Assembly (NCBI RefSeq): GCF_002377945.1
Contig: NZ_DFQV01000009.1
Location: 38,932-102,931 of the forward strand
Reading direction: 5' to 3'
Length of the DNA: 64,000 nucleotides
Source of the DNA: Psychrobacter sp. UBA3480
Lineage (GTDB): Bacteria; Pseudomonadota; Gammaproteobacteria; Pseudomonadales; Moraxellaceae
This document shows, piece after piece, positions 3,990-23,621 of this stretch. The translations under genes and the position numbers were made by a program. The notes under the pieces were generated by a model that made no database searches, was not told the origin of the DNA, and saw only the letters and a program-made list of their open reading frames with translations. Every line of letters starts with the position of its first letter. The first letter of the stretch is position 1.

Positions 3990-5468
3990 ATGAATGATAT
4001 TACGATGAATGATTTGATAGGATTGTTGCCTTACGCGCCGATTATCGCCGTAGTGATTACGGTACTGACGGTTATGATCGCGATTACCTTTAAACGCTCG
4101 CATATGGTCACTGGTACGATTACGGTGGCAGGATTAAACATTGGTCTATTTACCCTTATCGGGCAGATGATCGGTGTGATTGAAAGCGGATCTATCGCGC
4201 CAAACGCTGAGCAACTATTTGTTATAGATAACTTTGCTCAGTTTAATATGGTGGTGATTTTTATCTGTGCCTTGGCTTGTTGTACGCTGTCTTATGCGTA
4301 TCTGGCCAATCTCAAAGACAATAAAGAAGAGCTGTATTTGCTCATGCTGCTATCGACCATTGGTGCATTACTCATGGTAAGCGCGCAGCATATGGCGTCA
4401 TTCTTTATGAGCTTAGAGATGCTGTCAGTACCGTTATATGGTTTGCTTGCTTATACTTATATGCGCAACCAGTCGCTTGAGTCGGGATTGAAGTATTTGG
4501 TATTGTCGGCGACTGCATCAGCGACGTTACTAATGGGTATGGCCTTTATCTATGCAGAAGTAGGCTCACTAGCGTTTAAGCCAATCAGCATGGTACTAGG
4601 CAATATCTTTGAGTCGCCACTACTGATATTGGGCGCGGCAATGATGATGTTTGGTATCGCCTTTAAACTATCGGCTGCTCCTTTCCATATGTGGACGCCA
4701 GATGTTTATGAAGGTGCACCAGCGCCTATCGCTACCTTTTTAGCATCAGTATCAAAAGTGGCGATGATGGCACTAGCTGTGCGTTTCTTAATCGATACTG
4801 CTTTGCTGGCATTGCCATCAGTGCAAATGCTATTGATGGTCATGGCTACTTTATCTATCTTGGTAGGTAACTTATTGGCAGTACGTCAAACTAGCCTGAA
4901 ACGTCTACTCGGTTACTCATCTATTGCTCATATGGGTTATGTGATGATCGTAATTGTTAGCATTGGTTCAGCCGCTGATAGTATCTCTAGTATGTATATG
5001 GCGGTTTATGCCTTTACCTCTATCGGTGCCTTTGGCGTAGTGACGTTGATGTCGAGTCCGTATCGCTTATCTGGTGAAGCCGATGAGTTGACGCATTATC
5101 AAGGGCTATTCTGGCGCCGTCCAGTATTGACCGCTGTCATGACCATCATGATGTTGTCATTGGCTGGTATTCCGTTGACGGCAGGCTTTATCACCAAGCT
5201 ATTTGCTATCTTAGCTGCGGTACAAGGTACCAACTGGTTCTTGGCTGCGATGATTATCTTGGGTAGTGCGATTGGTCTATTCTACTACTTACGCGTTTTA
5301 CTCACGCTGTTCAAACGTCCTAAGCAGTTCATCGAGTTTGACGTGTCTGGGCAATGGGGTATTCGTACCGGTGGTATCATGGTCATTGCTGTGACTGCGA
5401 TTATTCTATTCTTTGGTATCTTGCCAAATAGTATGATTGAGTGGGCAAGTTTGGCTCGCATTTGGTAG
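3990..5468 (+). CDS. nuoN: NADH-quinone oxidoreductase subunit N
   Basis: Third antiporter-like proton-pumping subunit of complex I and the last gene of the operon. It has 492 residues and about 14 membrane helices. Motifs are MSLEMLSVPLYGLLAY near residue 139 and APFHMWTPDVYEGAPAPI near residue 229. SLKRLLGYSSIAHMGYV follows near residue 302. The chosen ATG has GGAGG 11 bp upstream, inside the end of nuoM; a second in-frame ATG six codons later is possible. A strong intrinsic terminator begins 64 bp after the stop. Confidence 0.97.
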   Translation: MNDITMNDLIGLLPYAPIIAVVITVLTVMIAITFKRSHMVTGTITVAGLNIGLFTLIGQMIGVIESGSIAPNAEQLFVIDNFAQFNMVVIFICALACCTLSYAYLANLKDNKEELYLLMLLSTIGALLMVSAQHMASFFMSLEMLSVPLYGLLAYTYMRNQSLESGLKYLVLSATASATLLMGMAFIYAEVGSLAFKPISMVLGNIFESPLLILGAAMMMFGIAFKLSAAPFHMWTPDVYEGAPAPIATFLASVSKVAMMALAVRFLIDTALLALPSVQMLLMVMATLSILVGNLLAVRQTSLKRLLGYSSIAHMGYVMIVIVSIGSAADSISSMYMAVYAFTSIGAFGVVTLMSSPYRLSGEADELTHYQGLFWRRPVLTAVMTIMMLSLAGIPLTAGFITKLFAILAAVQGTNWFLAAMIILGSAIGLFYYLRVLLTLFKRPKQFIEFDVSGQWGIRTGGIMVIAVTAIILFFGILPNSMIEWASLARIW

Positions 5469-5531
5469 TGTCGCTGAGTTAATACGGCAGATAAGTCGCT
5501 GCGATCTATCTGTTGTTACGGTTAAAAAACC

Positions 5532-5574
5532 AAGATGCGCCAGCTTTATGATAAGCTTGGCGCATCTTTTTTTA
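5532..5574 (+). terminator. Intrinsic terminator of the nuo operon
   Basis: A 10 bp GC-rich arm (AAGATGCGCC) plus a 5 bp inner arm (AGCTT) pair with AAGCT and GGCGCATCTT around a 6 base loop, with one bulged T. The 3' arm runs into seven T residues. It lies 64 bp after nuoN and no gene lies between, so it ends complex I transcription. Confidence 0.9.
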
Positions 5575-5662
5575 TGCTTACCTTTTTGGTATTTGTCTTC
5601 TTTTACCTATCAAAGGTATCTTATAAAAATATAGTTTAATAAAGTATAAGTGACGAATAATT

Positions 5663-6490
5663 ATGAGTGATAATATTCAAACAGTAACGGTGCTCAGCAA
5701 AACCACATGGACGCCAAATTTATTTAGCTTTACCGTCAGCCGTCCCGATAGTTTTAAGTTTACAGCGGGGCAGTTTGTACGTTTAGGCGTCAATCCTAGT
5801 CAATTAAAATATTATCAACAGACTGATGCAAGTGATGAAGTCTCTGATACCGCATTGAATGAAGATGTCTTTCGCGCGTATTCAATTGTCTCTTCGCCCT
5901 TTGATGAGGTGATAGAGTTCTTTTCTATCGTAATTCCTGACGGTGCATTTACCTCGCAATTGCAGCATTTACAATTGGGTGATGAACTGCTGCTCAACAC
6001 CATGCCATTTGGGTTTTTGACGTTAGCACGTTACCAAAAACCATTGCCAAAAGACTTATGGCTGCTAGCAACAGGGACTGGCTTAGCACCATTTTTGTCA
6101 ATGCTACAAGATTTAAAGACATGGGAAGATTACGAACACATTGTATTGGCTTATAGTGCCCGTTCGCTCGATGAACTTGCGTACGTTGAAAAAATCGAAA
6201 GCCTACAAGAAGACTTCGGTACACTGGTTGATAATCCAGCAAAGCTTATCTTTATCCCAATCGTCACTCGTGAGCCTGTCGAAGGTGCATTGTCAGAGCG
6301 TCTGCCAAAGCTACTACTAGGGGGTACGTTACAAGCGCGTGCAGGTATCGCATTAGATATCGATACTACGCATGTCATGCTATGTGGCAACCCAGATATG
6401 GTAGAAGATACCAAAGAGGCATTAAAAACATTGGGACTGGTGATGAATCGCCGCGGTGAGGGTAATATTGCCGTAGAGAACTACTGGTAG
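5663..6490 (+). CDS. fpr: Ferredoxin--NADP reductase
   Basis: Flavoenzyme (275 residues) that moves electrons between NADPH and ferredoxin or flavodoxin; in relatives it supports redox balance and Fe-S repair. The N-terminal FAD-binding barrel holds RAYSIVSSP near residue 71, the RxYS flavin motif. The NADP-binding fold begins at ATGTGLAPFLSML near residue 136. The C-terminus ends in aromatic ENYW, and terminal aromatic residues stack on the flavin in bacterial-type FNRs. There is no close ribosome site (weak GTGA). The gene stands alone between two terminators. Confidence 0.92.
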   Translation: MSDNIQTVTVLSKTTWTPNLFSFTVSRPDSFKFTAGQFVRLGVNPSQLKYYQQTDASDEVSDTALNEDVFRAYSIVSSPFDEVIEFFSIVIPDGAFTSQLQHLQLGDELLLNTMPFGFLTLARYQKPLPKDLWLLATGTGLAPFLSMLQDLKTWEDYEHIVLAYSARSLDELAYVEKIESLQEDFGTLVDNPAKLIFIPIVTREPVEGALSERLPKLLLGGTLQARAGIALDIDTTHVMLCGNPDMVEDTKEALKTLGLVMNRRGEGNIAVENYW

Positions 6491-7385: not shown

Positions 7386-7939
7386 TCAATCGGTGACGTA
7401 AAAATGGCTAAACAAACTTTGCAGGCTATCATTGATTTAAACGAAAGCTAATTATCTATAATTTCTGAATATCTACGACCATTAGTAATTTTTATACTGA
7501 TAGGTAGCAAAAGCGAAAAACTGACCTCTGATACTAGTGCATAGTGAATATACATTTACTGTGCTGCTTGACCATCTGCCGTGCCTAATTAAGACGATGC
7601 ACAGTTCTGATTGTTGCAAAGTAACGTGCTACTAATTCTATTGTGCTAAAGCAGTATATAACAAATACAGTGGCTTCAAAATGAACACATGCGTTTTATA
7701 GCAATTCATTTGTTATAGACAGTGTTTTTTCTGCCTTATATATTCTCAAGCGCGCGTTTTTCAATCAGCGGATAAGGTTACCAATACTGCATGGCAGATG
7801 TCAAAATGCCGTCTCAGTGCTTATACTGGCGACATAATTCTATGTCATGTTATGATAGCGCCAGTATAAATCATGCCTATCGTTACAACACTTATTAAAT
7901 AGTGCTTTGTACTGATGTGCTCACAAGCTGAGATTCATT
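7386..7939. other. 554 bp gene-free region between divergent genes
   Basis: A+T-rich spacer holding the upstream regions of the minus-strand unknown gene and the plus-strand TonB-like gene. No ORF of merit is present. The one clear structure is the 11 bp inverted repeat at 7821-7869, listed separately. Confidence 0.8.
7821..7869. repeat. 11 bp perfect inverted repeat upstream of the TonB-like gene
   Basis: TTATACTGGCG (7821-7831) is exactly complementary to CGCCAGTATAA (7859-7869), with a 27 bp spacer. The spacer holds a smaller inverted repeat, GACAT...ATGTC. There is no T-run on the plus strand, so it is not an obvious terminator. It ends 70 bp before the gene start, where an operator or a 5' leader hairpin could lie. 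Confidence 0.75.
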
Positions 7940-8827
7940 GTGGCCTATATAAAAGACTCACAGAGCTATCATTTTTCCGCGCAAGCTCCCAAGCGCGATA
8001 TAAGTTTGCCTGTCGCTATTGTTATTGCGGTGGCTGTCCATGTGCTGATTATCTTCGGGATTAGCTTCTCTATGGGAAAAGACCCAGCTGCTATGATGCA
8101 AGATGTGGCAAAGGCGCTGACCGATAACATGCAGCCCAATGAAGATGCGCACTTTATTGCCAACGCTTCACAAGAGGGCGGCGGTACAATAGAAGAGCAG
8201 CTAAGACAAGAGAACAATCAGCTAAGTGCAATGTCTGCTGAGCAAATAAGCGAGACTCAAGACATCGTTAACTTACAGCGTAAAGTGCGTCAGCAGCGTT
8301 ATCAAGAAAGCTACCTACGCACGACGTTGAGTTGGCGTCAGGCCACTGTAGAGTCGGATAATGACAGCGAGCAAGCGCAAGATGATGCGATGGCACAAGA
8401 AGAGCGGCTACGTAAGCAGATTGCAACCTTAGAAGCTCAGCTATCTCAGCGTCAGCAGGTCTACGCGACCAAATCCAAAGTCGTGACAATGGATAGTAAT
8501 TCGACCACACGGGGTGCGGCAGCAGACTATATCAATACATTCCGTGAGCATGTCGAGCGAGTGGGCAACTTGCATTATCCCGTGCAAGCGCGTGCCCAAG
8601 GTATTACGGGTGAAGTACGCCTTATGGTTATCATCAGTAACGACGGCAACATCAAAGCCATTCGACTGCTTGAAAGCTCGAACTCTACGATATTGGATGA
8701 AGCGGCCAAGCAGTCTGTACGACAAGCAGCACCCTTTGGTAAGTTCACCGAAGACATGAGCGATATCGTCGAGCTGCGCTTGATACGTACTTACCGCTAT
8801 AGTGATACAGTCGAAGTAACGTACTAA
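7940..8827 (+). CDS. TonB-family energy transducer
   Basis: 295 residues. A short cytoplasmic N-terminus (1-22) is followed by one membrane anchor (about 23-43, LPVAIVIAVAVHVLIIFGISF). Then comes a long Gln/Glu-rich coiled-coil region (about 75-180) and a C-terminal TonB domain (about 205-290). The domain shows LHYPVQARAQGITGEVRLMV, then AIRLLESSNSTILDEAA and AAPFGKF, the usual order for TonB C-terminal domains. TonB links the inner-membrane proton motive force to outer-membrane receptors. A coiled coil replaces the usual proline-rich spacer. No exbB, exbD or receptor gene is nearby. The start is GTG with only a weak ribosome site (GAG). Confidence 0.87.
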   Translation: MAYIKDSQSYHFSAQAPKRDISLPVAIVIAVAVHVLIIFGISFSMGKDPAAMMQDVAKALTDNMQPNEDAHFIANASQEGGGTIEEQLRQENNQLSAMSAEQISETQDIVNLQRKVRQQRYQESYLRTTLSWRQATVESDNDSEQAQDDAMAQEERLRKQIATLEAQLSQRQQVYATKSKVVTMDSNSTTRGAAADYINTFREHVERVGNLHYPVQARAQGITGEVRLMVIISNDGNIKAIRLLESSNSTILDEAAKQSVRQAAPFGKFTEDMSDIVELRLIRTYRYSDTVEVTY

Positions 8828-15331: not shown

Positions 15332-15368
15332 GTAATCGTAACTTTTATTAAATGATAAGAATATTTTG

Positions 15369-16601
15369 ATGAAGCATATTTTAATTGATTATGAAAACAT
15401 TCAGCCTAAAAGCTTCGATAATGTAGAGGTGGATGAATGCCATGTATGGCTGTTTTTGGGTATCAATCAGCAGAAGAGTTTATCTCTTGAATTGGTTGAA
15501 AACTTGCTCAGGTTTGATAATGAAAATGTGCACATTATTAAGATGCAACATGCAGGGAAGAATGCGCTAGATTTTTACTTGTCTTTTTATCTTGGCAAAA
15601 TCTCTGAAATTGATCCTAGTGCTGATGTTTGTATTTTAGCAAGAGATAGTGGTTATGATATCTTGGTTGAGCATCTCAATAGTGCTTATGATGGTATGAG
15701 TATCATGCGGTTAGAAAATGCTAATCAGCTAACTGTGGCTTACGAGTCAAACATAGAAAATGCATTAGATATAAAAAAAAGCCAACTTGTCATCGAAGAC
15801 AGTCATAATGTTTTGTGTGATGACGTTACTAGCGTTGCCATGGACAATAAGAAATCTTTAGCGCAAAGCCTTGAAGGAAGCGTTCCCAAATCGGTTATAC
15901 ATGAGTGTTACGTATTGGTTTTTGATAGCATTGTCAATCGTAAGGTTTTTTTACCGAGCTATAAATCCAACCTATTGTACTCGATAAAGAAGTACGTTCC
16001 AGTGACAGTACTAGAGAGATTTAATAGTACTGAGCAAGATTATATTTTTGAACAGGTTTTTGGAAAATTTATCAAAGCAGGACTTATTAGACTTGATGAA
16101 AATGGAGAAAAACTAAGTTATAAAGTAGACAGTCAAGGAATATTAGATTTAGTCACTGATCAAGTTTTACGAAGTAAGGCAAAAGAAATTGATGGATTGA
16201 ATAATGTGATCAAGCAAAAACTTGCAAGTTATCGCCAAGCAAATAGTCAGGATCAAATTGATTTAGTTATAAATTACCTCAAAAAGAAGGAAATAATAAA
16301 ACAGGATAACAAAGCTATCTATTACTCACCTTTCAATAATGTCAAAGGAAATTCGAGTAAAGTTTCACAAGATGATAATAAGAATAGCAAAGACTCTGCT
16401 ACAACATATCAACGTGCAATAGCACAGCTAAAAAGTAGACCAGCAGGTACTCGACCATCCAAAAAGTCAAGCTTAATAAACTATCTTAAAAGCTATCTAC
16501 GTAATGAGGATACTAAAGCAATTGATAAGCTAGTTAAACAGATGGTTAGTAATAAAATAATCGTAATATCAAATACGAATAAGCTGATCTACAAAATATA
16601 G
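15369..16601 (+). CDS. PIN-like domain protein, putative ribonuclease
   Basis: 410 residues. The N-terminal 120 residues match the PIN/NYN-like fold: HILIDYENIQPKSF at the start, then GKNALDFYLSFYLGKI near 67 and CILARDSGYDILVEHL near 94. Spaced Asp/Glu residues suit a metal-dependent RNase site. The rest is Lys/Asn-rich and seems to hold two or three small winged-helix-like units (about 175-260, 275-320, 345-410), possibly for RNA binding. The architecture recalls NYN plus LOTUS proteins, but that is inference. The gene is clearly A+T-richer than its flanks, which suggests acquisition. I chose ATG 15369 over TTG 15366. Its stop is 1 bp from the opposing lysO stop. Confidence 0.78.
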   Translation: MKHILIDYENIQPKSFDNVEVDECHVWLFLGINQQKSLSLELVENLLRFDNENVHIIKMQHAGKNALDFYLSFYLGKISEIDPSADVCILARDSGYDILVEHLNSAYDGMSIMRLENANQLTVAYESNIENALDIKKSQLVIEDSHNVLCDDVTSVAMDNKKSLAQSLEGSVPKSVIHECYVLVFDSIVNRKVFLPSYKSNLLYSIKKYVPVTVLERFNSTEQDYIFEQVFGKFIKAGLIRLDENGEKLSYKVDSQGILDLVTDQVLRSKAKEIDGLNNVIKQKLASYRQANSQDQIDLVINYLKKKEIIKQDNKAIYYSPFNNVKGNSSKVSQDDNKNSKDSATTYQRAIAQLKSRPAGTRPSKKSSLINYLKSYLRNEDTKAIDKLVKQMVSNKIIVISNTNKLIYKI

Positions 16602-16602
16602 C

Positions 16603-17514
16603 TTACCCAAGCGCCGAAAAGAAGACCATCAGCACTGGCGAGACAATGTTAATTAGGAAGCCAAAGCTAATCGCTAGTGGCACGACTTTTAGACCACCTG
16701 ACTGCTGAATGATAGGCAAGGTAAAGTCTAAGCTGGTCGCGCCGCCAAGCCCAACCGCAGCGGAAGGGTATTTACGCATAAATACCGGAATAAAGATTAA
16801 TGCAAAGAACTCACGTACCAAGTCATTAAACAACGCGACACTACCCCAAACCGCGCCATAAGCATCGGTCATGACAATCGCTGATAGCGAGTACCAACCA
16901 AACCCTGACGATAGTGCTAAGCCTTTCGTCCATGACACATCCGTAAATAGTAGCGCAAAGATAAGCCCGCCTGCCAATACCGCTAACGTAAAGATGATAC
17001 TCATTTCTACGCCGCGTTTATTCAGTAATACTTCTTTTAAGGTGATGCCCGATCCTTTTAAGCCTATACCGACCAATAATATCAAAATCATTAGCATGAC
17101 GGTCATAGAGTTTTCAGGCGGCATATAATCAGCAGGCAAGAAATAGCCAATCACCATCCCAATTACCACACAAACCACTTGCGCCAAGCTACCGCGAATG
17201 CTCACCCGATGCTCTTTAGATTTTACACTTGGTTTCTTGGCATGCCACGGACGCAGATGGTCAAACACCATAAGCGCAAACAATCCCGTGCCAATTGTCA
17301 GTATTGATAATACAGTGACATACAGTGCAATTTCACCCAGCTGATTGCCTAGACCTTCTACCTGTGACAGCTCAATACCAATCAACGCTAGGATGATAAA
17401 TACCAAGTATGATAGACCTTTGTCGGCCACTTTTGTCATAGTAGGGTTAGACGGAATGGCAAAGCCAATAAACATTGGCATTAATACCAGAACAAGGGTG
17501 ACTAGGCTTTCCAT
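16603..17514 (-). CDS. lysO: Lysine exporter LysO family protein
   Basis: 303 residues, close to E. coli LysO (YbjE, about 300). Inner-membrane exporter of L-lysine and toxic analogues in the characterised member. About eight hydrophobic helices are visible, with the family's N-terminal half (ALIGIELSQVEGLGNQLG near 41). In the C-terminal half are SSGFGWYSLSAIVMTDAYGA (about 200) and NDLVREFFALIFIPVFMRKY (about 228), as in DUF340. There is no lysine riboswitch or ArgP site that I can recognise in the 260 bp upstream. It converges on the PIN-like gene with no terminator between them. Confidence 0.88.
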   Translation of the reverse strand: MESLVTLVLVLMPMFIGFAIPSNPTMTKVADKGLSYLVFIILALIGIELSQVEGLGNQLGEIALYVTVLSILTIGTGLFALMVFDHLRPWHAKKPSVKSKEHRVSIRGSLAQVVCVVIGMVIGYFLPADYMPPENSMTVMLMILILLVGIGLKGSGITLKEVLLNKRGVEMSIIFTLAVLAGGLIFALLFTDVSWTKGLALSSGFGWYSLSAIVMTDAYGAVWGSVALFNDLVREFFALIFIPVFMRKYPSAAVGLGGATSLDFTLPIIQQSGGLKVVPLAISFGFLINIVSPVLMVFFSALG

Positions 17515-17778
17515 GATAAAGGGCTCGCAGCATTTTTAATAAGGCGTTTTTAAGAAGCTGAAGATTGTACCATATAAGGTTAGCAGTATTGATATGAGCT
17601 ACTGAGATTCATTGCAAATCATCGCTCATTGTTGACTAAAATGGAAAAATTAGACGATTATAATGATGTTAATAAATATCTTTTTAAAAATGTTTGAACG
17701 TTTTTGAGCGCTTTGTAATTCTTTACCTTACAAACTTTTGTTGCTACATTAAAGTACTGGAAATATTTGGCTAGACTC

Positions 17779-20550
17779 ATGTCGCTATATCAGCTCAAAA
17801 CTCAGTTTCAAAATCAGCTACGCCCGATAAGCAATACGCTGGTTGAGCAAAATATTACCGCTAACCAAGTGACGGTATCCGCTGTTTTATTAAGTATCGG
17901 TACTGCCTATATCATTGCCAAACCAGCGGCTGAACAGCAGCGGCTGTGGCTTTTATTACCATTATCATTGTTTGTACGTATGGCACTCAATGCCATCGAT
18001 GGCATGATGGCCCGTGAACATGGCCAGGCATCAACGCTAGGAGCCGTGTTAAACGAGGTAGGTGATATGGTTGCCGATACGGCGCTATTAGCGAGCCTGA
18101 CCCCTCATATCCTGACCCCTCATATCAATAACAAAGAACGGCAAACGGTAATAGCCAACTTGCTAACGAATATATCAACTTCTCAGCATCATATCACTGC
18201 TCTGATAGCCCTTAGTATTGGCACCGAGCTGTTGGGCGTTACTAGTAATACCATGTTAGGTGTTCGTGCTAACCAAGGGCCTTTGGGCAAAAGCGACCGC
18301 GCCTTCCTATTAGGGGTGCTTGGTGCCTTTATGGGTAGCAGAGCCAAAGTGCCAGTCGGTATTAAAATGCAGACGTCTTCGCTTCCTGTCAGAATGGGTC
18401 AATTATTTATATTAACAGAGGTGATGCTACTAAAGACTTGTCTCAATCGACTACGTTATATGACAGAGTTATACTTGATGCGTAATCCACCTCAGCTGCG
18501 GCCAGATAAAACTGTTTCTGTCATTGGCCATCATACTGAGCCTAGTAAGCTTAATAAGCTATCCTGCGATAGTTCTCTATTAAATGTTTCAATATTGAAT
18601 GTGTCAGTATCAAATTCTACTATTCAAACTTCCTTTTCGGAGTCCAATACGATGCCCGTCACACCTAGCAATGATCAACCTAATGATCAACGCAGTGATC
18701 AAAAAACAATCGCAAAAAATGATACGGGTTTTGACTTGCCTGCATCTAAAATCATCAATGGTGAAAGCTGTCATAACGCTTATGATGGCACGGCTATTTA
18801 TTATCGCTATTGGCTAACGACGCCTTTAGAAGATATCAAGCAAGCCAACCAACCGTTGCGCCAAGTTATCTTATTGCACCGAGGACATGAGCATTCGGGA
18901 CGATTGGCAGAGCTGGGAGAGCAGTTTGCAAAAGCTGGCTATCAAGTGTTTGCTTGGGATGCGCGTGGTAATGGGCGTTCAGGGGGTATCAAAGATCATG
19001 CTGAGAGCGTTACCGAGCTTGAGCGAGATTTAGAAGGTTTCGTACAACTGGTGATTGGGCAAACAGGTATTGCTATCGAAGATACATTGATTGTCGCTAG
19101 CAGTATCGGCGCGGTATTGGCAGCAGCATGGGTACATGATTATGCGCCTAATATTCGCGGCATGATACTTGGCACGCCTGCGCTCAGTATTCGCTTGTAT
19201 TTGCCCTTTGCCATACCGTCATTGAAGGTGGCGCGTACGCTAGGTCTGATGTCACGTGTCAGCAGCTACGTTAAAGCACAAGTACTGACCCATGATAAAG
19301 ACGCGCAGCAAGCCTACAATGCTGATCCGTTAATCTCCAACAGTATCTCGACCGATTTACTCATTGATACCCATGCAACGGGTCAGCGTCTACTCGATGA
19401 TGCTGGTGCTATCACCGTACCGACGTTTGTCTTATGCGCGGGTAAGGATTATGTGGTCGATAAACAGGCTGAGCGCACCTTTTATGAAGCGATTAACACA
19501 CCGACCAAACGCTGGCAGTTGTATCCAGATAGCTATCATGCAATTTTTCATGAGACCAATAAAGCCGATGTATTCGCCGACTGTATTGAGTTTGCTGAGC
19601 AAGTATTTAGCGCACCAGTCCAAGCACCTGATTTGAGTACGGCTCACTTAAATAGTGCTAGTAAAGATAAAGTGGATCGTTTGGCGATTAAACCATTCAA
19701 TCCAAACTTTGCAATTACCCGTTTTGCGATGCAGAAGTTTGGTCATGTCAGCGATGCGATTGCGACAGGGCTTGAGCATGGATTTGATTCAGGTCATTCA
19801 CTGGATCATGTCTATTACAACAAGCCTAGCGGTCAGAATAAGTTTGGACAAGCAGTTGATAGGTTTTATTTAAATAATATCGGTTGGCAAGGTATTCGTA
19901 TTCGCCGTGAGCATATATTGGAGTTGGCACGCTTAGCACTTGCAGATATCGAAGATAAAAACCAAAGTAGCATTGAGTCATACCAACCAAAACTGTTAGA
20001 TATCGCTAGTGGACATGGTTTTTATGCATTTGATCTGCTGACAGAGTTTACAGAATTACATGCTGAATTACGTGATTATGAGATGCATAATATACAGGCA
20101 TTGCAAGCAAAGGCGGAGCGTTTGGCCATGAGCAGTCGAGTCGTGACCAGTCAAACGGATGCCTTTGATCCTGCCAGTTATATCGATGCAGATACGAATG
20201 ACACTAGTACCGATACTAAAAAATCAGATCTTGCTATTGCTTCAGGGTTATTTGAACTTTTCTCTGATAATGCGCTACCAGCGACAGCCTTAGCGGGTAT
20301 TTATGACAGTTTAAAATCGGGCGGTTATCTAATTTATACCAACCAACCGTGGCACCCTGAACAGGAATTTATCAGTAAAACATTAAACAATCACCGTGGT
20401 AGTAGTTGGGTGATGCGCTGTCGCTCGCAAGCGGAGATGGATCAACTGGTTGAGCGTGCAGGTTTTAAAAAGGTTGCCATGCGTATCGATCGCTTTGGGA
20501 TATTTACCGTGTCATTAGCGATTAAAACTGTACCAGCTGATGATGAGTGA
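17779..20550 (+). CDS. Fusion: CDP-alcohol phosphatidyltransferase, alpha/beta hydrolase, methyltransferase
   Basis: One 923-residue frame with three enzyme units. (1) About 1-230: membrane CDP-alcohol phosphatidyltransferase with DGMMAR-x8-G, but Asn at the first and third usual Asp positions. (2) A polar linker, about 235-325, built partly of microrepeats. (3) About 325-605: alpha/beta hydrolase with HRGHEHSG, DARGNGRSGG, nucleophile ASSIG near 438, GKDYVVD and YHAIFH, a full Ser-Asp-His set. (4) About 650-923: class I SAM methyltransferase-like part with LLDIASGHGFYAF near 738. In E. coli the same parts are split into YnbA and YnbC (from memory). A likely role is making and remodelling an unusual phospholipid. 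The start could be TTG 17767; I chose ATG 17779. Confidence 0.85.
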   Translation: MSLYQLKTQFQNQLRPISNTLVEQNITANQVTVSAVLLSIGTAYIIAKPAAEQQRLWLLLPLSLFVRMALNAIDGMMAREHGQASTLGAVLNEVGDMVADTALLASLTPHILTPHINNKERQTVIANLLTNISTSQHHITALIALSIGTELLGVTSNTMLGVRANQGPLGKSDRAFLLGVLGAFMGSRAKVPVGIKMQTSSLPVRMGQLFILTEVMLLKTCLNRLRYMTELYLMRNPPQLRPDKTVSVIGHHTEPSKLNKLSCDSSLLNVSILNVSVSNSTIQTSFSESNTMPVTPSNDQPNDQRSDQKTIAKNDTGFDLPASKIINGESCHNAYDGTAIYYRYWLTTPLEDIKQANQPLRQVILLHRGHEHSGRLAELGEQFAKAGYQVFAWDARGNGRSGGIKDHAESVTELERDLEGFVQLVIGQTGIAIEDTLIVASSIGAVLAAAWVHDYAPNIRGMILGTPALSIRLYLPFAIPSLKVARTLGLMSRVSSYVKAQVLTHDKDAQQAYNADPLISNSISTDLLIDTHATGQRLLDDAGAITVPTFVLCAGKDYVVDKQAERTFYEAINTPTKRWQLYPDSYHAIFHETNKADVFADCIEFAEQVFSAPVQAPDLSTAHLNSASKDKVDRLAIKPFNPNFAITRFAMQKFGHVSDAIATGLEHGFDSGHSLDHVYYNKPSGQNKFGQAVDRFYLNNIGWQGIRIRREHILELARLALADIEDKNQSSIESYQPKLLDIASGHGFYAFDLLTEFTELHAELRDYEMHNIQALQAKAERLAMSSRVVTSQTDAFDPASYIDADTNDTSTDTKKSDLAIASGLFELFSDNALPATALAGIYDSLKSGGYLIYTNQPWHPEQEFISKTLNNHRGSSWVMRCRSQAEMDQLVERAGFKKVAMRIDRFGIFTVSLAIKTVPADDE
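18096..18125 (+). repeat. Perfect in-frame 15 bp tandem duplication
   Basis: CCTGACCCCTCATAT occurs twice in direct succession and gives LTPHI-LTPHI in the phosphatidyltransferase part of the fusion protein. The perfect match suggests recent slippage. Confidence 0.9.
18670..18705 (+). repeat. Three 12 bp imperfect repeats in the fusion linker
   Basis: AATGATCAACCT, AATGATCAACGC and AGTGATCAAAAA encode NDQP-NDQR-SDQK between the phosphatidyltransferase and hydrolase units. They mark the region as a flexible linker rather than a domain. Confidence 0.85.
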
Positions 20551-20553
20551 TAA

Positions 20554-21750
20554 ATGAATAATCAGCAGGTTAAGCCTTATAAGCGTGTTCAGCTGTTTTC
20601 AGGGGGAGGGTCACGTTTTGGTTACTATTTGGGCAGTTATGCAGCACTAGCAGCGCATGATTTGACGCCAGATATTATCGTTGGTACTTGCGGTGGTAGT
20701 TTGTCTGCTTACTTAGTACAACTTGCGCCTGACCCTAAAGATTTGCAAGCGTTGATGTGCAGCCGTGAGTTGTATCGTGTCATCACTGCGATCAGACATG
20801 TTGCGCCAGATGAAGCCAATAAACGTCTAAAGCTGCGTTATATGACCCATGCACTCAAACGTTGGCGGTTATCAAAGCAAAGGGATAACGGACAAGGACA
20901 ACGTCAAGCAGACAGCTACGAGCGACTGTTAAATGAGCTACAGCAGTTGGCAATGTTTCGTATCGATAACGAGCAGTATTGGCTAGATGAACTGTCGCAG
21001 TTTGCTACTAGTAATAATGATATTAGCAATACTGATAAAGCAACGCCAGAGATAGCCATCATTGCCAGTCGATTGTATCAAGCACCTGCTGATGGCTTAT
21101 GTAATAAAAAAACTGTACTGCAAGAGTTGTTATTTGCGCCGCCGTGCTTAGCAAGTTTGCCAGATTCTATATTAGGTCTGGCTGACGAGCAAATAACATC
21201 ACCAGCGCACACATTTGCAAACGGACGCATACACCCGTCCGTAAAGGTAGAAACACAATGGGATTTTGCCCCAGTGATTCGCGCGTCTATGGCTGACATG
21301 TACTATCTACCGCCAACACATATCACAGAGCTTGGCTGGTGCTTAGGTGGGGTGATCAATCTGACACCGATTGAGCTAGCCTGTCAGTTGGGTAACAGCG
21401 TATTTGCAGAGACCAAGGCAGGTTATGATTCATGGCTGGCTGCTCCCGCGATTCAGCGCGTTTTTGGTTTTGATCCCAATAGGCGATTAGCAGCAGTACA
21501 CGGTTATCAAACAATCAGCGTGTCGCCTCGCACTGACACCACTAATAAAAACTATCAGCTACATTGGTTACCCTTTGCAGATAATGAGCAGCAACTGAGA
21601 GGGCAAAATGTGCAAAAGCGTTTTAACCTAAAGCAAATGACCGTTGAGCTAATACATAGCGACTATGACGGTTTTGTGCAGAAAATGCAGGCGCAATGGC
21701 AATATGGCTATCAGCGCACAGCCGTTTATATACAGCAGCATAAATTATGA
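20554..21750 (+). CDS. Patatin-like protein with altered catalytic residues
   Basis: 398 residues. The start has the patatin oxyanion loop GGGSRFGYYLGSY (about 16-28) and the nucleophile elbow IVGTCGGSLSAY near 42-53. The usual GxSxG serine is Cys (codon 20689). The later DGG motif appears as WCLGGVINLTPIELACQLG near 262, so the catalytic Asp is Leu (codon 21343). Typical patatins are Ser-Asp lipid acyl hydrolases; this one may be inactive, may use Cys, or may bind lipid only. No signal peptide or membrane helix. It starts 3 bp after the fusion gene and overlaps the next gene by 4 bp, so it is in the same operon. Confidence 0.82.
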   Translation: MNNQQVKPYKRVQLFSGGGSRFGYYLGSYAALAAHDLTPDIIVGTCGGSLSAYLVQLAPDPKDLQALMCSRELYRVITAIRHVAPDEANKRLKLRYMTHALKRWRLSKQRDNGQGQRQADSYERLLNELQQLAMFRIDNEQYWLDELSQFATSNNDISNTDKATPEIAIIASRLYQAPADGLCNKKTVLQELLFAPPCLASLPDSILGLADEQITSPAHTFANGRIHPSVKVETQWDFAPVIRASMADMYYLPPTHITELGWCLGGVINLTPIELACQLGNSVFAETKAGYDSWLAAPAIQRVFGFDPNRRLAAVHGYQTISVSPRTDTTNKNYQLHWLPFADNEQQLRGQNVQKRFNLKQMTVELIHSDYDGFVQKMQAQWQYGYQRTAVYIQQHKL

Positions 21751-22574
21751 AAAACCTCGCAAAAGGTATCACTAAAAACCATGCGCCGCATATCATTATC
21801 GTTGGTGGTACAAGTGGCATTGGCTTAGCTTTGGCGTTGCATCATCAGATGCTCGGCTGGCAAGTAAGCGTTGTTGGAAGTAGCGCAGTAAAGATAGCCG
21901 ATATCAACAGCTTACATCCTGCTATTGTGACTTATGTATGCGACTTAACTGACCCAAATCAAACGCAAACGTTATTAGACAATTTGTCAGGTATTCCATT
22001 TCAAAGGCTGATCTATAGTGCGGGTAGTTACACCAATGAGCGTATCCATCACTTAAATCAAGCAGATAGCGACCAGATGTTAGTGATTAACTTACAGGCG
22101 TTTGAGCAAGTTTTTAGATGGGCAAGCAGTCAGTTAAAGCAGCAGTTAAAACAGTCATGTCAGGCATTAGATATGACTAAAGGTGATAGACCTAGCCTCA
22201 TCTGTATTGCCTCTATCGCAGGCACGATAGATTATCCTTATGCCAGTCTATATGCAAAAAGCAAGCGTGCAATGATTGCTACGGCTAGCGCTTATCGAGC
22301 AGCACTTATACCTTATAACATCCAAGTAAACTGTATTGCCTCAGGCTATATCAATACTCAAGCACTACGTGATTTAAACGATGGCGATGCTAGCCATAAG
22401 CCATTTATCATGAGCACGCAAGCAGCGGTTGATCATATTATGCAAGCGATTGACGATAATATAGAACTAGCGATATTTCCACGCTCAATGCGCTATATCA
22501 CGAGTGCCTTAAATTATTTACCTAAGCCTGTGCTCAATTGGATATTGCGCAGTAAACTGGATAAAGCCAAATGA
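21747..22574 (+). CDS. Short-chain dehydrogenase/reductase
   Basis: 275 residues, classical SDR length. The NAD(P)-binding GGTSGIGLALALHHQ is near residue 18. YSAGSY near 90 stands for the usual NNAG. The active site has CIASIAGTIDYPYASLYAKSK near 153, with the catalytic Ser and YxxxK. It is coupled to the patatin-like gene by an ATGA overlap. In this operon it may reduce or oxidise a lipid head group or acyl intermediate; the substrate cannot be read. The C-terminal PRSMRYITSALNYLPKPVLNWILR suggests a membrane-facing tail, as in lipid-acting SDRs. Confidence 0.88.
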   Translation: MKNLAKGITKNHAPHIIIVGGTSGIGLALALHHQMLGWQVSVVGSSAVKIADINSLHPAIVTYVCDLTDPNQTQTLLDNLSGIPFQRLIYSAGSYTNERIHHLNQADSDQMLVINLQAFEQVFRWASSQLKQQLKQSCQALDMTKGDRPSLICIASIAGTIDYPYASLYAKSKRAMIATASAYRAALIPYNIQVNCIASGYINTQALRDLNDGDASHKPFIMSTQAAVDHIMQAIDDNIELAIFPRSMRYITSALNYLPKPVLNWILRSKLDKAK

Positions 22575-22600
22575 CTCTGCTATCTGTGCTTTGATTGTAT

Positions 22601-23509
22601 TTAACCAAATAACCAGTAGAGTAGAGTAAATGCTGGCACTCCAATCAGTAAACTGTCTATCCGATCTAACACCCCACCATGACCAGCGAGCATCGTTCCA
22701 GTGTCTTTTACCCCGTGCTGGCGCTTAAAGGCTGATTCTAATAAGTCTCCAAATATACCGCTTACAGCCAAGCCATAGGCAGCTAATAGACAGATCCACC
22801 AATCAAAAGGGGTGAGCCAAAGACCTAATACTGCTGCCAACATTGCCGCAACTAAACTGCCAAAGATAGCACCTTCAATGCTTTTATTCGGGCTAATAGT
22901 CGGCGCTAGACCTCGTTTAAACAGCTTACGTCCAAGCAGTCTTCCACATAGATATTGGGCAATATCGTTGAACTGACTGGCAAATAATACGAAGAGTAAA
23001 ACGCCATATTGTTCGCGTTGCCAGGTCAATTGCTGTAAGACAATAAGACTAATAATGAGTGAGATGAATGCAATACTCAGTAGCAGGTCTAAGGAGTTAA
23101 GCCGCGTATAGTGTTGAGTCAGATTGAGAGAGGTTTTTGGTAGCAGGGGAGTACTTGGCTGTAAGCCTTGCGCTTGGAGTTTATGAATGAGTACGGCTTT
23201 ACTGCGTAAACACCATAGGCGTTTAATCTCGTAGCTGCCGCGTAAACCAATTAATATAAAAAATAAAATGAGCAGCCATTGATAGACATATACTTGCAAA
23301 TGAGAACCTTGCGTATCGTTTGTTATTTTTGCAATCACATAGCAAGTGCAGAGTGCGGCTAGCATCAACCACCACGAGCGGGCTATCAGGTAGATTTTTG
23401 GCAAACGTTTGCGCAGACGAGGTACGGCAAGTACACCCCAAGCCAAGCTGACAATTATCATCAAGGCAATCACAAACACAATATCAGAAGCCATACCATG
23501 GACACTCAA
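22601..23509 (-). CDS. CdsA-like phosphatidate cytidylyltransferase (YnbB-like)
   Basis: 302 residues with seven or eight membrane helices. The C-terminal family signature is complete: [20 protein letters not shown] followed by GGVLDRIDS (about 255-283), with the conserved K/R, Asp and His. These enzymes make CDP-diacylglycerol from CTP and phosphatidate, the donor used by CDP-alcohol phosphatidyltransferases. Length and context resemble E. coli YnbB more than the housekeeping CdsA, which normally sits beside ispU and dxr. It converges on the SDR gene with 26 bp between stops, so it forms its own transcript within the module. Confidence 0.88.
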
Positions 23510-23621
23510 AGAAGAGGTAATATTTTAAGCCTATCCATAATGATAGCTTAAATGCTTCTTTAACTATAGTGTTAGATATCCTCTTGATGGGTTTGGCTAT
23601 TATCTGTTATCTGTCGTAGGT

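Follow-up and report, generated by a model that had tools for sequence, protein, structure and literature searches.

A fused Psychrobacter cassette of phospholipid enzymes with altered catalytic residues and its putative kinship with ynbABCD and arc1

A 64,000-nucleotide stretch of the genome of Psychrobacter sp. UBA3480 (contig NZ_DFQV01000009.1, positions 38,932 to 102,931; hereafter, the window) carries, between lysO and nadB, a cassette in which a YnbA-like CDP-alcohol phosphotransferase is fused to a YnbC-like hydrolase-methyltransferase and is accompanied by a patatin-like protein, a short-chain dehydrogenase/reductase (SDR) and a YnbB/CdsA-like cytidylyltransferase. The fusion is a trait of the genus Psychrobacter, and the cassette is gained and lost as a unit, its parts being co-inherited. 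Two features are new: Asn occupies two of the four signature aspartates of YnbA, and the Ser-Asp dyad of the patatin, as judged from alignment, is replaced by Cys and Leu. Sequence comparison further suggests that the cassette, the ynbABCD genes of E. coli and the arc1 cluster of Pseudomonas are forms of the same module, an equation that is newly drawn here. In our assessment, the chances are about even that the cassette represents, in compact form, the Psychrobacter version of the ynbABCD/arc1 phospholipid pathway, making or remodelling a dedicated phospholipid against membrane-lipid damage. The features are as follows.

17515..23621, strand not assigned: cassette interval, lysO to nadB
17779..20550, plus strand: ynbA-ynbC fusion gene, 923 residues from ATG 17779; an alternative TTG start at 17767 gives 927 residues
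17779..18480, plus strand: YnbA-like CDP-alcohol phosphotransferase domain, residues 1-234 (Pfam PF01066; 39% identity to E. coli YnbA by alignment)
17989..17991, plus strand: Asn71 codon, signature position D1 of the YnbA domain
18052..18054, plus strand: Asn92 codon, signature position D3 of the YnbA domain, followed by the invariant Glu93
18481..18849, plus strand: stretch from YnbA to the Pfam hydrolase match (linker and hydrolase start); fusion lengths vary among species
18850..19560, plus strand: YnbC hydrolase half, monoacylglycerol-lipase type, with Ser-Asp-His
19588..20523, plus strand: YnbC class I S-adenosylmethionine (SAM) methyltransferase half (PF12147)
20554..21750, plus strand: patatin-like gene with altered catalytic dyad
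20689..20691, plus strand: Cys46 codon, nucleophile Ser position of the patatin
21343..21345, plus strand: Leu264 codon, catalytic Asp position of the patatin
21747..22574, plus strand: SDR oxidoreductase, YxxxK present
22601..23509, minus strand: YnbB/CdsA-like phosphatidate cytidylyltransferase, convergent with the SDR gene
16603-17514, minus strand: lysO, lysine exporter gene upstream of the cassette (Pfam Lys_export)

The fusion and its inheritance in Psychrobacter

The first-pass annotation of this DNA had described a three-enzyme fusion in one 923-residue frame, and this is borne out: the frame is single and open, and it holds three Pfam domains above their cut-offs, namely (in the 927-residue numbering), CDP-OH_P_transf at 31-111 (26.1 bits, cut-off 22; a partial match, to profile positions 3-78 of 152), Hydrolase_4 at 362-598 (189 bits) and Methyltransf_20 at 608-919 (295 bits). 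The start at ATG 17779 is shared by a database copy of the fusion, P0121. The fusion stop codon is separated by a 3-base gap from the patatin-like gene, which in turn overlaps the SDR gene by 4 bases. The patatin, SDR and CdsA-like genes that had been said to follow are all in place, with the correction that the CdsA-like gene converges on the SDR gene from the minus strand and therefore lies outside that transcription unit.

The spread of the cassette was surveyed in 100 Psychrobacter genomes, a genome being called positive if the methyltransferase family PF12147 is present, which is the case in 59. In 55 of these independent assemblies, the methyltransferase sits in a single long frame (at least 826 residues), so that the fusion is no assembly error, as the search of other Psychrobacter genomes called for by the annotation has now made clear. 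An assembly or frame artefact, to which the broken or split frames of the other 4 positive genomes might point, has a negligible probability, given also the results of a protein search in which the YnbA part was the query. This search returned 229 proteins of fusion-compatible length; among the 120 listed, all match the YnbA part with the hydrolase in the same chain, and 119 contain the methyltransferase as well, the exception (P0224, 564 residues) ending before it. All organisms named are Psychrobacter. Of 20 Psychrobacter loci that were read, 16 have YnbA and YnbC within one open reading frame (ORF), and the four unfused ones (G003, G035, G058 and G076) are among those picked for suspected broken or split frames. 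Outside the genus, we examined the stretch read in 17 genomes with a strong YnbC (9 from a class sample and 8 more from a phylum sample): YnbA is found in 15, YnbB in 15 and YnbD in 13, and none of the 15 YnbA ORFs is fused.

The linkage of these families is conserved in relatives, in agreement with the annotation. The patatin is present in 58 of the 59 positive genomes and in none of the 41 negative ones, and the YnbB-like gene (called at a best E value of 3e-66 or better, true CdsA scoring about 1e-22) in 59 of 59 and 2 of 41, respectively. On a tree of 80 of the 100 genomes, built from six housekeeping proteins, the positive state changes at least 10 times by supported branches and 15 times on the best tree, and YnbB tracks the fusion in about 8.7 of 10 independent pairs, with none opposite (p about 0.004). 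Of the 41 negative genomes, 10 were read from lysO to nadB; nine show no trace of the cassette between these genes, and the tenth retains only remnants of the YnbB-like gene.

Several individual genomes depart from this picture. The sole positive genome without the patatin is G070 (loci L184 and L071), in which the fusion and the YnbB-like gene lie on different contigs. In G004 (L087, 10719-14268), a second, partial patatin ORF of 164 residues, which is a broken duplication or insertion, lies 1.8 kb past the intact copy and before the SDR gene. In G061 (L186) and G035 (L190), the YnbB-like gene stands beside putative fatty-acid oxidation genes instead of nadB; G061 has the YnbB-like gene and no fusion. 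Around the cassette of the window, nadB and nadA (named from reading of translations) lie downstream, and a PIN7-domain protein of 411 residues (15366-16601) adjoins lysO and is retained in part of the relatives read.

Altered catalytic residues in YnbA and the patatin

The signature of CDP-alcohol phosphotransferases, D1xxD2G1xxAR...G2xxxD3xxxD4, is termed absolutely conserved in PMC4634129, which also reports that mutation of D4 to Asn leaves almost no activity; in PgsA1 of Mycobacterium tuberculosis, two metals are bound by all four aspartates, the first of them by D1-D3 (PMC6506517). In place of the canonical DxxDGxxAR...GxxxDxxxD, YnbA has NxxDGxxA(R/K)...GxxxNExxD, with D1 and D3 changed to Asn; the eight-residue signature is thus incomplete in the YnbA of the window, which retains D2, G1, AR, G2 and D4. 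The Asn-Asn motif is found in 36 of 36 loci, E. coli included, and in all 79 YnbA proteins recovered from 80 Pseudomonas loci, and Asn is present at both positions in all 120 listed stand-alone YnbA proteins as well as in all 120 listed fusions (240 of 240; two of the fusions miss the strict pattern yet carry both Asn); these sets overlap. The three other PF01066 proteins of the genome to which the window belongs are canonical, with all four Asp kept.

Other parts of the YnbA site are strictly maintained. Across 13 aligned rows, D2, D4, E93, GKSDR and A(R/K) are invariant, and so are R174 and R224, which a hidden Markov model alignment equates with the phosphate-pocket residues R155 and R195 of phosphatidylinositol phosphate (PIP) synthase. 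The corresponding Arg pair of PgsA1, the residue numbers of which fit the aligned 6h53 chain, has been proposed to bind the acceptor phosphate (PMC6506517), and it is therefore plausible, from this alignment, that the acceptor of YnbA likewise carries a phosphate. The PIP synthases (6h53; PgsA1, PMC6506517) are the best solved relatives of YnbA (E value 5e-10) and have equivalents of these arginines in common with it, but YnbA differs from them by Asn at D1 and D3, by the residue after D4, which is Met, Val, Ile or Ala in the 13 rows where the inositol phosphate enzymes have Arg (R94), and by scores of 47.6 and 51 bits against the NCBIfam PIP-synthase equivalogs, far under the cut-offs of 170 and 180. 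One might conjecture that a lost metal is substituted for by R67, which precedes N71 by one turn and does not vary among the 13 rows.

The patatin-like protein matches PF01734 at 54 bits (cut-off 27.7) and has the GGGxR oxyanion motif, but not the catalytic dyad. Profile alignment with PlpD (5fqu), with which it has the GGGxR-type motif in common, places Cys46 at the nucleophile Ser and Leu264 at the catalytic Asp; PlpD is the sole solved match at E 0.01 and itself a weak one (E 0.003, with no single stretch significant). Among the listed proteins, Cys is found at the nucleophile position in 120 of 120 (116 by pattern and 4 by eye) and Leu at the Asp position in 120 of 120 (119 by pattern and 1 by eye). 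With the metal site of YnbA and the dyad of the patatin both altered, neither the plain head-group transfer nor the acyl or ester cleavage that the annotation had listed for the set is to be assumed of these two.

The hydrolase half of YnbC matches monoacylglycerol lipase 7p0y at an E value of 1e-32 and aligns end to end with the monoacylglycerol lipases (7p0y and 3pe6), to which YnbC adds the methyltransferase and, in the window, the membrane domain; its Ser, Asp and His do not vary across the 15 aligned sequences and are present in 120, 119 and 119, respectively, of the 120 listed fusions. In the methyltransferase half, there is a SAM motif, and the model shows a class I fold. Against CTP_transf_1, the YnbB-like protein scores 142 bits, and the SDR scores 89 bits against adh_short, with the glycine-rich motif and YxxxK kept.

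Correspondence with ynbABCD and arc1

Homologues of A, B and C are linked in the window, as they are in the arc1/ynb module, and E. coli has the homologues of all four, A to D, side by side, as determined by BLAST with the E. coli ynb proteins. The likeness to ynbABC that the annotation had pointed out was thus correct and incomplete, ynbD and the Pseudomonas acyltransferase having been left out. E. coli YnbC already combines hydrolase and methyltransferase; unlike in the cassette, E. coli YnbA is separate, YnbD is adjacent, and the operon contains neither a patatin nor an SDR. Of 5426 complete E. coli genomes, 4227 have at least 80% of ynbABC at a single site, and megablast gives no match in 864; the ynb region of all five listed best E. 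coli matches (H1-H5) contains a transposase gene. Literature searches found no function for E. coli ynb, save an effect of YnbB on the glycolipid MPIase: YnbB overproduction increases MPIase, knocking out ynbB does not change it significantly, and CdsA function is not restored by YnbB (PMC6362211). YnbD is reported not to complement strains devoid of phosphatidylglycerophosphate or undecaprenyl pyrophosphate phosphatase activity (PMC7413402).

In Pseudomonas, the gene order is A-C-D-LPLAT-B (LPLAT, lysophospholipid acyltransferase) in 77 of 80 loci; two of the three exceptions are at cut contigs, and in the third, a locus of full length, only C and D are seen. The deletion-primer pieces for PA2541 (Ting et al., PMC8926400) match exactly the start and end of the YnbA gene of P. 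aeruginosa PA7, and those for PA2536 match the YnbB gene exactly at its start and with one mismatch at its end, which identifies the operon as arc1A-F (PA2541-PA2536). Like ynb, arc1A-F comprises homologues of YnbA, YnbC, YnbD and YnbB, and the PA7 YnbA has the same Asn-Asn motif as the cassette; in contrast to the cassette, arc1 is unfused and includes the LPLAT and, in PA7, a 150-residue protein without a Pfam match, encoded between YnbD and LPLAT (L104, 13103-13555) and bringing the cluster to six genes. The BLAST of these 80 Pseudomonas loci reported no relatives of the patatin or the SDR. L051 has an ORF of 154 residues without a Pfam match (7521-7985) between YnbD and YnbB, and in L055, from a non-Psychrobacter genome, a complete A-B-C-D cluster is preceded at a short distance by a ketoacyl-synthase III-like gene (4873-6027).

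The arc1 cluster is controlled by Gac/Rsm in P. aeruginosa and defends against the type VI secretion system of Burkholderia thailandensis; five of its six genes appear phospholipid-related (PMC8926400). Without arc1A, resistance to TseL and Tle1, both lipase effectors, is reported to be incomplete (PMC12663445). The defence phenotype of arc1A in Pseudomonas is thus shown in print; the string 'ynb' is absent from the main texts of both papers.

YnbD is the component that the cassette does not contain. Among the ORFs of the window, no YnbD homologue is found, so that the module is not complete within one operon; a YnbD-like gene of the same genome, encoding 541 residues, lies on another contig (C10:36900-38486). 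Its PAP2 motifs and CX5R phosphatase motif are visible in the translation, and Pfam finds PAP2 and, at E 0.01, no dual-specificity phosphatase domain. In relatives, YnbD is sometimes close to the cassette (for example, in L072, L078, L085 and L189) and often unlinked. A YnbD-like gene without an early stop is present in 32 of the 59 positive genomes, versus 3 copies in the 41 negative ones, all of them damaged: that of G024 has two stops, that of G052 a frame change, and that of G086 stops 39 residues short of the end. With damaged copies taken as absent and descent corrected for, YnbD follows the cassette in 5.6 of 7 pairs and runs opposite in none (median p 0.03, range 0.016-0.125), an association that is at most suggestive.

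The proposed pathway and its alternatives

Under the reading of the cassette as a form of the ynbABCD/arc1 pathway, the YnbB-like enzyme would make a dedicated pool of CDP-diacylglycerol, as its family suggests and as published work has likewise inferred of the E. coli enzyme. The YnbA domain would then move the phosphatidyl group onto an alcohol that bears a phosphate, by way of a metal site rewired through the two Asp-to-Asn changes, and the YnbD-like PAP2/dual-specificity phosphatase, encoded elsewhere in the genome, might take off the phosphate. The hydrolase of YnbC would clear monoacyl lipids, its methyltransferase would cap a product, and the fusion would hold the product of YnbA near the YnbC sites. 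More speculatively, the SDR and the Cys-patatin, which occupy the place of the LPLAT of other lineages, could supply an acylated precursor. If the role of arc1 is transferable, the membrane lipid so built or restored would allow cells to survive phospholipase damage inflicted by competitors; for Psychrobacter, defence is our inference from this comparison. The single lipid pathway that the annotation had proposed is a reasonable and likely frame, and the set is better described as a fused cassette variant of the arc1/ynb module; the interpretation in the annotation is supported in part, the identity with a cluster for resistance to antagonism having been missed.

Several observations weigh against such a pathway. 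Two of the enzymes are without canonical catalytic residues. YnbD was not found in 27 of the 59 positive genomes, the copies of the positive genomes G051 and G085 are open to the end but have no HCX5R pattern, and the association of YnbD with the cassette fades if any copy is counted (5.0 of 7 pairs, 1.0 opposite, p 0.22). The co-loss of YnbB owes partly to physical linkage. Two LPLAT queries found no LPLAT among the window ORFs (E 1e-4), arc1A is auxiliary to arc3A (PMC12663445), and our searches found no published defence phenotype for E. coli ynb or for Psychrobacter.

The first of these observations raises the alternative of two pseudoenzymes, in which case the YnbA domain would be no more than a membrane anchor for YnbC or a lipid binder, and the Cys-patatin a lipid-binding partner. 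The constancy of both changes, in 240 of 240 YnbA proteins and 120 of 120 patatins listed, fits this idea, as does the binding of catalytic metals by the D1 and D3 aspartates in PIP synthase, but the invariance of D2, D4, E93 and GKSDR in the 13 rows is what would be expected of a working site. Moreover, PAO1 shows a phenotype when arc1A is deleted, the PA7 counterpart having the same Asn pair, although a binding protein could have a phenotype too; on balance, we regard pseudoenzymes as rather improbable, at roughly one chance in four. Slightly more credible, while still unlikely, is a specialised phospholipid pathway apart from defence, for instance, in cold or salt adaptation; the pathway of the annotation, in its neutral form, is of this kind. 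All parts of the cassette belong to families that occur in lipid metabolism, and a presence in 59 of 100 Psychrobacter genomes is compatible with such a role; the patchy distribution, with repeated gain and loss in the genus, fits an accessory function better, and arc1 is reported to be dispensable under heat, peroxide (H2O2), salt and detergent stress, the mutants being insensitive to each (PMC8926400). Far less probable is an MPIase-type glycolipid pathway, in which YnbB would make both CDP-diacylglycerol and GlcNAc-PP-diacylglycerol: the effect of YnbB overproduction on MPIase and the failure of YnbB to substitute for CdsA could be taken in its favor, but there is no glycosyltransferase among the Pfam matches of the cassette, and neither 'YnbA' nor 'YnbC' occurs in the main text of PMC6362211.

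A broader proposition, of which we are doubtful and to which we give no better odds than to pseudoenzymes, is that E. coli ynbABCD, Pseudomonas arc1 and the cassette constitute one widespread lipid-defence pathway, the key enzyme of which would be a CDP-alcohol phosphotransferase whose metal site is altered (Asn for two Asp family-wide) and which Psychrobacter fuses to its downstream hydrolase-methyltransferase, with a Cys-nucleophile patatin possibly acting as the acyltransferase. If YnbA is active, its Asn-Asn motif violates a signature described as absolutely conserved. The comparison joins three literatures, those of the orphan E. coli ynbABCD genes, the arc1 defence cluster and the fused Psychrobacter cassette, and the question posed by the orphan y-genes thereby becomes directly testable in E. 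coli.

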